64,000 nt of DNA, from assembly GCF_017316025.1 (NCBI RefSeq), contig NZ_JAFLVT010000018.1:168356-232355 (forward strand), written 5' to 3'. This document shows, piece after piece, positions 11,092 to 26,411 of this stretch. This stretch comes from Candidatus Enterococcus myersii. Its GTDB lineage: Bacteria; Bacillota; Bacilli; Lactobacillales; Enterococcaceae. The notes beneath the pieces are model-generated. The model ran no database searches. It was not told the origin of the DNA and was given only the letters and a program-made list of their open reading frames with translations. Numbering within the stretch: the stretch's first letter is position 1; every line of letters begins with the position of its first letter. The position numbers and the translations under genes were made by a program.

Positions 11092-11127
11092 AAAAAAAGA
11101 CCACAGACAAAACTGTCTGTGGTCTTA
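11092..11127 (-). terminator. Terminator behind the oldest eno tail
   Basis: Perfect 11-base stem GACCACAGACA / TGTCTGTGGTC with a T-run on the minus strand. It lies 14 bases past the stop codon of the displaced eno end at 11141, so this is probably the host's original eno terminator. The rest of 10990-11358 holds only the eno relic and short AT-rich sequence with no gene. Confidence 0.75.
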
Positions 11128-11140
11128 AACTAAGCAATGA

Positions 11141-11224
11141 TTATTTGTTTTTCAAGTTGTAGAATGCGTTAACGCCTTTGTATTCAGCAACTTCGCCTAA
11201 TTGGTTGTATTTAGCAATCCGGTC
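11141..11224 (-). pseudogene. Displaced eno 3' end, copy 1 (with 21-base deletion)
   Basis: The minus strand reads ...[27 protein letters not shown] followed by TAA (given here in part), the C-terminus of enolase. Compared with copy 2 at 13262 it lacks 21 bases, removing QLLRIED, exactly between two AATTGGT repeats. It has no start and no promoter. Homology stops near 11224-11226, right after the CGGTC core shared by all three eno tails. Confidence 0.9.
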
Positions 11225-11358
11225 GGCTATACCTGATAATTTTTTCCACCATAAGGTTAAAAAGGTTAACGTTCTCAAAAACACAGAAAAATTTTATGTT
11301 AGAATTGAACAGAAAACTAACCTAAAAGATCTGTGTCCACTAAATCATCCTAACACCA

Positions 11359-12234
11359 CTATTTAGTGTAATCGTCTGCGTCAGTAGACCATGATAATGT
11401 TTTATTTTCTTCTAGAGCATGAATTCGCGAGATTAAGCTAGAATGAATTTTTTGAAATGCGTCACTACCTAAGACTATTCTTAACGGAGGCGTATCGGTT
11501 TGTGTTAACGATACAATCTTGGTCGCCATTTTTTGGGGATCCCCTGCAATTGTTTTAAGATAAGAATCAATTTCTGTTTGACTTGCTCCAGTTAAGCCAT
11601 TTTGCATGATATCCGTAATTTTTCCTGTTGGAGTATTATCATAGGCAGATAAACGATCGCCAAAAGCACCATTTCCACCAACAAAGTTAGTTCTTATACC
11701 GCCGGGATCCACAATTGTTACACGAATGTTGAAGGGAGCAACTTCTTGTGACAAAGCCTCAAAAGCTGCTTCAACAGCCCATTTTGAGGCACTATACATT
11801 CCCATTGCAGGTGTAGAATAATGGCCAGCCATACTTGATATTTGTATGATTTGTCCACCACCCTGTTTTCTAAAATGAGGAAGAAAAGCTTTTGCGGTTC
11901 TCAAAGAGCCAAAAAGATTGATTTCAAAAACGTCTTTCATTTGCCGCTCAGAAATTTCTTCGATAGCACCATACAAACCATATGCAGCATTGTTTAGTAA
12001 AACATCGATCTTTCCAAGATCATTAAATGCCGCGTTTACAGTACGCTTTACATCATCTTCATCGGATAAGTCTAATGAACTTTGCCAAAGCTGATCACCA
12101 TATTGTTTTTTCAAGTCGTCAAAAGCACCCTCTTTTCTGGAAGTAACCGCAACCCTGTCACCATTTTCAAGTAATTGTTTAATTACAGCTGTTGCAAGCC
12201 CACCTGTAGCTCCAGTTATAAACCAAGTTTTCAT
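11359..12234 (-). CDS. Short-chain dehydrogenase/reductase
   Basis: NAD(P)-dependent SDR-fold oxidoreductase of about 291 residues. It has the glycine motif TGATGGLA near residue 8, NNAAYG near 84, and the catalytic pair YSASK near 150 with the preceding serine in IQISSMAG. The C-terminus, about 50 residues longer than the minimum SDR core, places it with the larger classical SDRs whose substrate cannot be told from sequence. I start at MKTWFITG (12234), 12 codons inside the longer frame. It is divergent from the TetR gene, which probably controls it. Cargo of the relic unit. Confidence 0.85.
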   Translation of the reverse strand: MKTWFITGATGGLATAVIKQLLENGDRVAVTSRKEGAFDDLKKQYGDQLWQSSLDLSDEDDVKRTVNAAFNDLGKIDVLLNNAAYGLYGAIEEISERQMKDVFEINLFGSLRTAKAFLPHFRKQGGGQIIQISSMAGHYSTPAMGMYSASKWAVEAAFEALSQEVAPFNIRVTIVDPGGIRTNFVGGNGAFGDRLSAYDNTPTGKITDIMQNGLTGASQTEIDSYLKTIAGDPQKMATKIVSLTQTDTPPLRIVLGSDAFQKIHSSLISRIHALEENKTLSWSTDADDYTK

Positions 12235-12360
12235 AATAGAAATCACTCCAATATCAAATTGACGTTTCAATTGTAACGCCTTGTGATTTGTAGTATAGTT
12301 TTTGCTATTGAAATAAGCAATTCTTATACACAGCGATGTTACAGAACAGGAGGCTTTGTT

Positions 12361-12918
12361 ATGTCCAATTCATATAATGAAGAGCAAAAGAAACTTACGA
12401 GAGATTCTATTTCTCAGGCTCTCATATTGCTCGCCAAAAATAAAGAGTACAACAAGATATCAGTTAGCGAGGTAGCGAATAAAGCTGGTGTTTCTAGAAT
12501 GGCATTTTACAGAAATTATGATAGCTTAGAAGATGTTGTAAAATGTCAGATTAGGGAAATTAATAACACATATAGAAATAGTCTTACTGAAGAGGACGTT
12601 GATAATTTTAATTTGACACGAGTATATTTTGAAACTTTGCGGCAAGAACAGGATTTCTTTATCACAATATTTAAATCAACTTCGGCAATACTCATTCTAT
12701 CTGAATTAGTTGAATTTCTAGAATCATTCTCTGAAAAATTGGTATGCAATATAGAATGTTCGCCAAAATACCGATCGTATAATATCAAGTTCCTTGCTGG
12801 TGGCTTATTTAATGTTATCAGAAGTTGGTGTAATGGCGGTATGATTGAGAGTGCTGACGAAATGGCTTTGCTGATTTGTGAACGTATTTCAAGTCATATT
12901 GTCGGTGTTAGTAGTTGA
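12361..12918 (+). CDS. TetR/AcrR-family regulator
   Basis: 185 residues. The N-terminal helix-turn-helix is ISVSEVANKAGVSRMAFYRN at about 35-55, preceded by a family-typical first helix (TRDSISQALILLAKNKEYNK). The C-terminal ligand and dimer region is variable. The start at 12361 follows AGGAGG at correct spacing. The 126-base gap to the divergent dehydrogenase gene contains TGTAACG and CGTTACA-like halves that could be operator parts, but I cannot define a clear site. Confidence 0.88.
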   Translation: MSNSYNEEQKKLTRDSISQALILLAKNKEYNKISVSEVANKAGVSRMAFYRNYDSLEDVVKCQIREINNTYRNSLTEEDVDNFNLTRVYFETLRQEQDFFITIFKSTSAILILSELVEFLESFSEKLVCNIECSPKYRSYNIKFLAGGLFNVIRSWCNGGMIESADEMALLICERISSHIVGVSS

Positions 12919-24878: not shown

Positions 24879-24926
24879 AAAAAAACACCACCTTTCTTTA
24901 TAAATTAATAAAAGAAAAGTCGTGTC

Positions 24927-25000
24927 TAGTATTGCTAACTTGATGCTGTTTGTACTTTGCAATACGTGAAATTCTACAGTATTGAAAAATTGGTATACCT
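24927..25000. repeat. Integrase-side arm sites of the element
   Basis: Contains AGTATTGCTAAC (inverted form of GTTAGCAATA), TTTGTACTTTGCAATACGTG (24950 region) and ACAGTATTGAAAAATTGG. Related sequences occur at the far end (13467) and in the relic unit (13127). Confidence 0.5.
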
Positions 25001-25021
25001 TAACAAACAATCTCATTCGAC

Positions 25022-25048
25022 AAAAAAAGACCCTTCAAAAGAAGAGTC
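25022..25048 (-). terminator. Terminator after intact eno
   Basis: GACCCTTC / GAAGAGTC stem followed by seven T on the minus strand. It differs in sequence from the terminators behind the two displaced eno tails, so the element brought its own. Confidence 0.75.
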
Positions 25049-25106
25049 TTAATTACGTCCGAACAGTTTTAATTCCTATTAGAATAAGCTTTATTTAAAC
25101 TTTTAA

Positions 25107-26411
25107 TTATTTGTTTTTTAAGTTGTAGAATGAAGCTAGACCTTTGTATTCAGCTACTTCACCTAATTGGTCTTCAATACGTAATAATTGGTTGTATTTA
25201 GCGATACGGTCAGTACGTGAAAGAGAACCAGTTTTGATTTGGCCAGCGTTTGTTGCAACAGCGATATCAGAGATTGTTGAATCTTCTGTTTCACCAGAAC
25301 GGTGAGAAACAACTGCTGTGTAACCAGCTTCTTTAGCCATTTCAATAGCGTTAAATGTTTCTGTTAATGTACCGATTTGGTTAACTTTAATTAGGATTGA
25401 GTTACCAACGTTACGTTCGATACCTTCAGATAATTTTTCAGTGTTTGTAACGAACAAGTCGTCACCAACTAATTGAACTTTGTCGCCTAGTTCAGCTGTT
25501 AATTTTTCCCAGCCTTCCCAGTCGTTTTCGTCCATACCATCTTCAATAGTGATGATGAATGGATATTTTTCAACTAATTCTTTCAAGTATTCTACTTGTT
25601 CTTCTGAAGTACGTTTTGCTCCGCCTTCACCTTCGAATTTAGCATAGTCATATACGCCGTTTTCGTAGAATTCAGAAGCTGCACAGTCAAAACCTAAACG
25701 TACATCGTCGCCGATTTTGTAGCCAGCTTTTTCAACTGCTTTAACGATTGTTTCAACAGCATCTTCAGTACCTTCAAAACGAGGTGCAAAACCACCTTCG
25801 TCACCGACTGAAGTTTCTAAGCCGCGTTCAGATAAGATAGATTTCAATGCGTGGAATACTTCAGCACCCATACGCAAGCCTTCTTTAAATGTAGGTGCAC
25901 CTACAGGTAAGATCATGAATTCTTGGAATGCGATTGGCGCATCTGAGTGAGAACCACCATTGATGATGTTCATCATAGGAGTTGGCAACACTTTAGTATT
26001 GAAACCGCCTAAGTAGTGGTATAAAGGTACTTCCAAGTAATCAGCAGCTGCACGAGCTACAGCGATTGAAACGCCTAAGATTGCGTTGGCACCTAATTTA
26101 CCTTTATTAGGAGTTCCGTCTAATTCGATCATTGCTTTGTCGATAGCCATTTGGTCACGAACATCGTAGCCAATGATAGCTTCTGCAATAATGTTGTTTA
26201 CGTTGTCTACGGCTTTTTGAACGCCTTTGCCGCCATAACGAGATTTGTCACCATCGCGTAATTCAACGGCTTCGTATTCACCAGTTGAAGCGCCTGAAGG
26301 AACCATACCGCGACCAAAAGCACCTGATTCTGTGTATACTTCTACTTCGATTGTTGGGTTACCACGTGAATCAAGGACTTCGCGTGCGTAAACATCAGTA
26401 ATAATTGACAT
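25107..26411 (-). CDS. eno: Enolase
   Basis: Converts 2-phosphoglycerate to phosphoenolpyruvate; cytoplasmic, Mg-dependent. 434 residues, full length. Signatures include [48 protein letters not shown] and [18 protein letters not shown]. The last 35 or so codons (after ACTGAC at 25207-25213) were probably supplied by the inserted element: displaced copies end in GVNAF where this gene has GLASF. It is the last gene of the cggR-gap-pgk-tpi-eno operon. Confidence 0.98.

Follow-up and report, generated by a model that had tools for sequence, protein, structure and literature searches.

The 3' end of the enolase gene (eno) very probably serves as the target of a family of integrative islands whose recombination core lies about 107 nt ahead of the eno stop codon. 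In the 64,000-nt stretch of Candidatus Enterococcus myersii DNA analysed here, hereafter the window, such an insertion appears to have taken place twice. The first-pass annotation had claimed three co-oriented copies of the eno C-terminal end, each with its own stop codon and a distinct terminator, and all losing their homology at a common CGGTC core. These observations hold, and the elements concerned are the following.

25107..26411, minus strand: eno, enolase of 434 aa, with a host-group body and 36 terminal codons apparently from the island
25107..25213, minus strand: in-place eno tail, apparently island-borne and Vagococcus-like; core CTGACCG at 25213-25207
13262..13368, minus strand: displaced tail b; core CTGACCG at 13368-13362
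11141..11226, minus strand: displaced tail c, probably the oldest, with a 21-nt internal deletion; core CCGACCG at 11226-11220
25027..25050, minus strand: terminator-like hairpin 3' of the in-place tail (hairpin scan)
13198..13227, minus strand: terminator-like hairpin 3' of tail b (hairpin scan)
11097..11126, minus strand: terminator-like hairpin 3' of tail c, of the type found after the single eno of the sister species G002

A BLASTN search of eno against the window recovers, besides the intact gene, tail b (E 2e-33, 87.9% identity across 107 nt) and, at 11141-11224, tail c. The latter matches in two pieces (E 6.5e-15 and 4e-5) because 21 nt were lost internally, a deletion that is absent from the counterpart in G090, a genome of the same species. 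The in-place tail, b and c share one orientation and have each kept a stop codon. Similarity of all three starts at one core, which reads CTGACCG on the coding strand, or CCGACCG in the case of c, and corresponds to CGGTC on the plus strand. The terminator-like hairpins, all on the minus strand, differ from tail to tail; altogether, the region 10900-25300 contains 12 terminator-like sites against a shuffle mean of 3.4. Just past tail c, an MFS-transporter-like frame (within 9769-10989) is broken into 9769-10662 and 10729-10989.

In the mechanism that we propose, a tyrosine integrase would recombine the island into the core that precedes the eno stop codon by about 107 nt. The left end of the island would bring its own last 36 eno codons, stop codon and terminator, and integration would swap the tail of eno while shifting the old tail of the host to the far end of the island. 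The gene would stay whole because the incoming left end supplies the missing codons, the stop and the terminator. The strand exchange itself probably falls within CTGACCG. Islands, site, event order and the foreign make-up of the present tail are read from the genome comparisons described below.

The outer island and its comparison with phages

The block between the in-place tail and tail b comprises the following features.

13369..25213, minus strand: outer island, about 11.8 kb core to core (repeat spacing 11,845), absent from G090 and G002
24985..24997, minus strand: TATACCAATTTTT box, candidate integrase arm site
23940..24875, minus strand: tyrosine integrase, 311 aa, GTG start picked by alignment (Pfam PF00589, E 1e-26)
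23290..23859, minus strand: small serine recombinase of the resolvase/invertase type
20212..21714, minus strand: primase-like protein (AEP-TOTE; Pfam E 4.5e-14)
18013..18609, minus strand: second small serine recombinase, 97% identical to the one beside the eno tail of G030
17049..18059, minus strand: AlbA_2 (Schlafen-type) protein (Pfam E 3e-11)
16198..17067, minus strand: DUF2971 protein (Pfam E 3e-4, just above the cut-off)
14819..16129, minus strand: PD-Lambda-1-like defence gene with DUF4041 and MUG113/T5orf172 domains (PADLOC E 1.8e-143; Pfam)

As in islands that restore the 3' end of their target gene, a tyrosine integrase (PF00589) lies at one end of the block, adjoining eno, and an eno 3'-end direct repeat is present at both ends with the gene whole. 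This integrase, whose open frame extends to 25016, presumably performs the integration. With regard to integrative conjugative or mobilizable elements (ICE/IME), no Pfam match to a relaxase or to type IV secretion was found among the 11 island ORFs scanned. Phage satellites of the PICI type combine an integrase with a primase or replication module and packaging-interference genes; the island has the integrase and a primase-like gene, and no packaging-interference family is found among its PHROGs matches. Rfam returned a tRNA as the sole match in the window, and no tandem repeats were found in 11000-25300. Beside the primase-like gene, three non-coding 77-nt repeats (100, 91 and 61% alike) occupy 19367-20145 and resemble iterons or an origin in their position only. 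The island's right end (13506-13261) recurs at an eno tail in G030 (L045 5568-5815) at 89.9% identity, with a related serine recombinase, in an island whose other genes are different.

A temperate prophage or its remnant would account for an integrase at this position, and eno has indeed a precedent as a phage site. The first-pass annotation knew of no described family using eno, but phage phi20617 of Streptococcus thermophilus (2018) lies at the eno 3' end, a location described by its authors, in the accessible part of the article, as to their knowledge a novelty (PMC6237837). According to the same part of that source, phi20617 resembles the window island in its target gene end, in an integrase that adjoins eno and in the repeat formed on integration, and it differs in being a full phage with a 43 bp repeat. 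Its integrase matches that of the window only marginally (24.7% over 85 aa, E 0.004), which falls short of clear homology, and a common integrase was rejected. A phage origin also draws some support from IMG/VR, which holds 348 confirmed relatives of the integrase; among the best 80 of these 348, two contigs (L120 and L121) fall inside the eno clade. In addition, the regulator pair beside the integrase in L096 looks phage-like by eye. However, PHROGs recognizes no phage packaging or structural family in the ten window-island ORFs scanned, and out of 50,697 phage records just one, with 33.5% identity, reaches E<=1e-25 against the integrase. On these grounds we rejected a phage origin for the window island and consider it very improbable, even though viral-contig relatives do exist. 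A first viral scan with a single integrase protein had returned one relative, at 27%. No eno tail was found in the eight viral records searched (L120-L127), a search that had no positive control and covered records that may be cut at the site. The contigs L120 and L121, 28.0 and 24.6 kb long, each have an eno-clade integrase at their start, and phage-like elements may share the site.

Donor and host sequence in the enolase tails and the likely order of insertions

We compared eno bodies and tails separately in 75 eno genes from hand-picked genomes, a subset of those searched. By eno comparison the window host sits near E. dispar, and its eno body is nearest to its own group (G090, 98.9%; G008, 97.5%). 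For the in-place tail, the closest sequences are those of six Vagococcus genomes (98.1% for G055, the best of them), and for tail b that of G008 (99.1%). Together with 54 nt of 3'UTR, the in-place tail is 97.5% identical over 161 nt to Vagococcus G235, a genome that has a single eno tail and lacks any integrase match at E<=1e-40, and whose eno body is only 77.0% identical to that of the window. These 54 nt find a match in 14 of 14 Vagococcus genomes and in none of the 60 other genomes compared. The Vagococcus-like tail and UTR, the 77% body and the native-like tail b indicate that the enolase of the window is a cross-genus chimera, the last 36 codons of which were apparently borrowed from another genus. 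This is in agreement with the earlier claim that the host enzyme now ends in DNA of a mobile element.

When G008 is taken as the reference, 13 of 107 nt are different in the in-place tail, compared with 29 of 1198 in the body (Fisher p 1.3e-5) and 1 of 107 in tail b; against the more distant G005, the in-place tail shows no excess of differences (p 0.55). The tail of G002 is itself unusually divergent (8/107 from tail b vs 32/1198 in the body, p 0.013), and G008 offers only 67 nt of contig past eno, so that neither genome is a perfect native reference. Tails are also short and conserved: in 671 genome pairs with bodies under 80% and no eno-adjacent integrase, they average 87.4% identity (sd 3.8, maximum 98.1%). 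A clear split between a foreign tail in place and a native tail displaced recurs in E. thailandicus G087, whose in-place tail is 99.1% identical to G007, a member of the window's genus; relative to the genomes with the six nearest bodies, its in-place tail reaches 86-87% and its displaced tail 94-98%. The split is likewise clear in G065 (80-81% in place vs 97-100% displaced), weak in G092 and in G090 (92.5% vs 99.1% to G008), and lacking in G001, G018 and G091.

These comparisons also bear on the side of the tail at which the crossover occurs. If it lay 3' of the tail, the in-place tail would belong to the host and the displaced tails would be island-borne; in G001, G168, G214 and G200, where both tails are identical, a crossover is possible anywhere in the repeat. 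In the window, G087 and G065, however, the entire in-place tail is foreign and the entire displaced tail is like that of the host's relatives, and tail b is common to two strains along with 5.4 kb of downstream flank. A 3'-side crossover was ruled out on the window, G087 and G065, and we regard it as scarcely credible.

Past tail b lies a second, shorter block with the following features.

11227..13368, no strand assigned: apparent older island remnant, about 2.1 kb, without integrase, both ends kept
13053..13227, minus strand: left arm of the remnant, related to its counterpart in the E. dispar island
12283..12918, plus strand: TetR-family regulator
11359..12270, minus strand: short-chain dehydrogenase

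G090 aligns with the window over 27000-25106 (98.4%) and 13372-8000 (97.9%, 5,395 columns), and only the eno tails align to it in the segment between. At the same core, and in place of the 11.8-kb block, G090 carries an 18.6-kb island with an integrase 35-38% identical, which ends at a tail b identical to that of the window (107/107 nt) and precedes the same b-to-c block as in the window. In the sister species G002, eno has a single tail, both blocks are missing, and the gene continues into the sequence found past tail c in the window (11205-11021 at 85%, 10941-8000 at 94.5%). From the island swap in G090 and the single tail of G002, the likely order is a native tail c, then an older island bringing b, and then different younger islands inserted at b in each strain. 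Hence, the two stacked integrations at eno proposed by the first-pass annotation are supported. It had also suggested a search in relatives for empty sites with a single eno tail and for a strain precisely missing the 13.4-25.2 kb block. G002 offers such an empty site in a sister species; none was found in the same species, of which G090, the only other genome compared, lacks the block but holds its different 18.6-kb island there. The same comparisons with G090 and G002 rule out an explanation without any site-specific element, whether an assembly artefact or a mere duplication of the eno 3' end through ordinary homologous recombination, and we give it next to no credence: assemblers can be misled by repeats, and G111 has a longer near-identical eno repeat without the family integrase, but the same layout recurs in many genomes with the integrase always adjoining eno, the two tails of the window differ by 12% and its three tails lie within one contig.

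The 2.1-kb b-to-c block looks like an older island that has kept its ends and lost its integrase. Its left arm matches that of the E. dispar island in 134 of 197 columns (score 133, where 200 shuffles reach 47 at best), and at the other end the E. dispar and E. thailandicus islands have right arms similar to its own. As the block has no integrase, we infer its membership of the same family from these two ends of E. dispar type. It may also have supplied a tail, b and c being too alike to separate donor from host. Of the earlier proposal that one family inserted repeatedly and brought a new enolase tail each time, the two insertions thus stand by comparison, and the supply of a tail stands for the outer island, with its Vagococcus-like tail and UTR and its native-like tail b; for the inner block, both family and tail supply are probable extensions.

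The integrase family at eno

The association between this integrase and eno extends well beyond the window. In 105 Enterococcaceae genomes, all ten integrase matches at E<=1e-60 begin at most 175 bp from an eno tail match, and none of the next ten matches listed (E 8e-44 to 1e-38) lies at eno. In 295 Lactobacillales genomes, the 13 matches at E<=1e-60 all adjoin eno. The union of both surveys amounts to 18 genomes, with the integrase beside eno in every one. A displaced tail is present in 15 of them, on a separate contig in G018 and G092, and was not found in G349 (39 kb), G006 (80 kb) or G116 (where the contig ends); where one contig includes both tails, as in 13 genomes, they lie 5.9 to 27.4 kb apart. 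In a midpoint-rooted tree of 48 chosen integrases, the 18 eno-adjacent members cluster with two viral contigs (support 98/92). Extra eno tails occur in 12 of the 105 Enterococcaceae genomes, a count that omits matches at E>=6e-5, taken as an enolase paralogue; 6 of 14 Vagococcus genomes have them as well. Integrase fragments adjoin eno in Vagococcus G277, with an extra tail, and in G265, without one.

A TATACCAATTTTT box is found 20-109 nt past the stop codon in 15 of 19 left arms at two mismatches or fewer (12 at one or fewer), compared with 10 of 400 control windows; the left arms missing it are those of G318, G195, G168 and G349. The box may be an arm site of the integrase, and it is just a lead because the left-arm rows are related. 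A copy in the right arm was sought in 18 arms and rejected, as no consistent match appeared.

Most of the islands compared carry a small serine recombinase. As cargo, the G090 island carries a type III restriction-modification pair, and a large restriction-methylase is encoded in the E. dispar island. The benefit likely resides in the cargo, that is, the PD-Lambda-1-like gene in the window and restriction-modification genes in two relatives. The islands of G001, G087 and G018 (E. dispar, E. thailandicus and E. pseudoavium) have integrases 97-98% identical and different tails, and they become similar again immediately past the stop codon or past the terminator. This pattern suggests that tails may be exchanged between island and resident gene, perhaps via homologous recombination at the repeats. 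More tentatively, and with rather more doubt than conviction, we consider that throughout the Lactobacillales eno islands cross genus and family lines, overwriting or capturing the end of eno. The in-place tail would then point to the former host and the displaced tails to earlier events, and the enolase ends of many lineages would be mobile instead of vertically inherited.

The use of conserved-gene 3' ends by tyrosine integrases, as stated in the first-pass annotation, is well described: in the available portion of the source, streptococcal IMEs with such integrases occupy the 3' ends of rpsI, rpmG, rplL, guaA and tRNA genes (PMC5357655). Like the eno islands, these IMEs have integrase families tied to one gene, direct repeats and a preference for 3' gene ends; unlike them, they are defined by a relaxase, none being recognised in the window island, and eno is not among the sites named in that portion. 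Latilactobacillus sakei prophages, as far as the accessible text of PMC9641780 describes them, reside in guaA-type GMP synthase and glucose-6-phosphate isomerase genes. They share with the eno islands the choice of essential metabolic genes, one of them glycolytic, and differ in being phages at other genes. We found no report of eno islands in Enterococcus or Vagococcus in the open-licence literature, covered mostly by title, which is not proof of absence; the available parts of PMC6391281, PMC2828477 and PMC13037414 contain nothing bearing on eno integration, and PMC10688831 does not mention eno. The eno 3' end as a phage site and the general kind of system are known; what is new is this family of integrases with its range, together with the stacking of islands and a tail that travels.

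The coding end of an essential glycolytic enzyme has here been replaced, by all appearances, with DNA of another genus while the gene remains intact. The tails can serve as a record of where the islands have travelled, and eno as a typing or phylogenetic marker may mix two histories. Moreover, the integrase, together with its eno site, is a candidate tool for integration, and some eno islands hold defence genes at a fixed, searchable address.

Additional features were observed in other genomes. Islands of the G090 type encode an extra 191-aa protein that comprises little beyond the integrase catalytic domain (L033:3348-3923), near-identical in G006 and G091 and 92% in G092. By eye, their right arm (L033 20240-20480; L038, L041) contains an apparent rearranged piece of the eno body from upstream of the core. 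Finally, G111 (L039) and G107 (L040) have second eno tails 3.8-4.1 kb from eno without the family integrase; that of G111 is part of a longer near-identical repeat, and that of G107 is decayed and has a stop codon.
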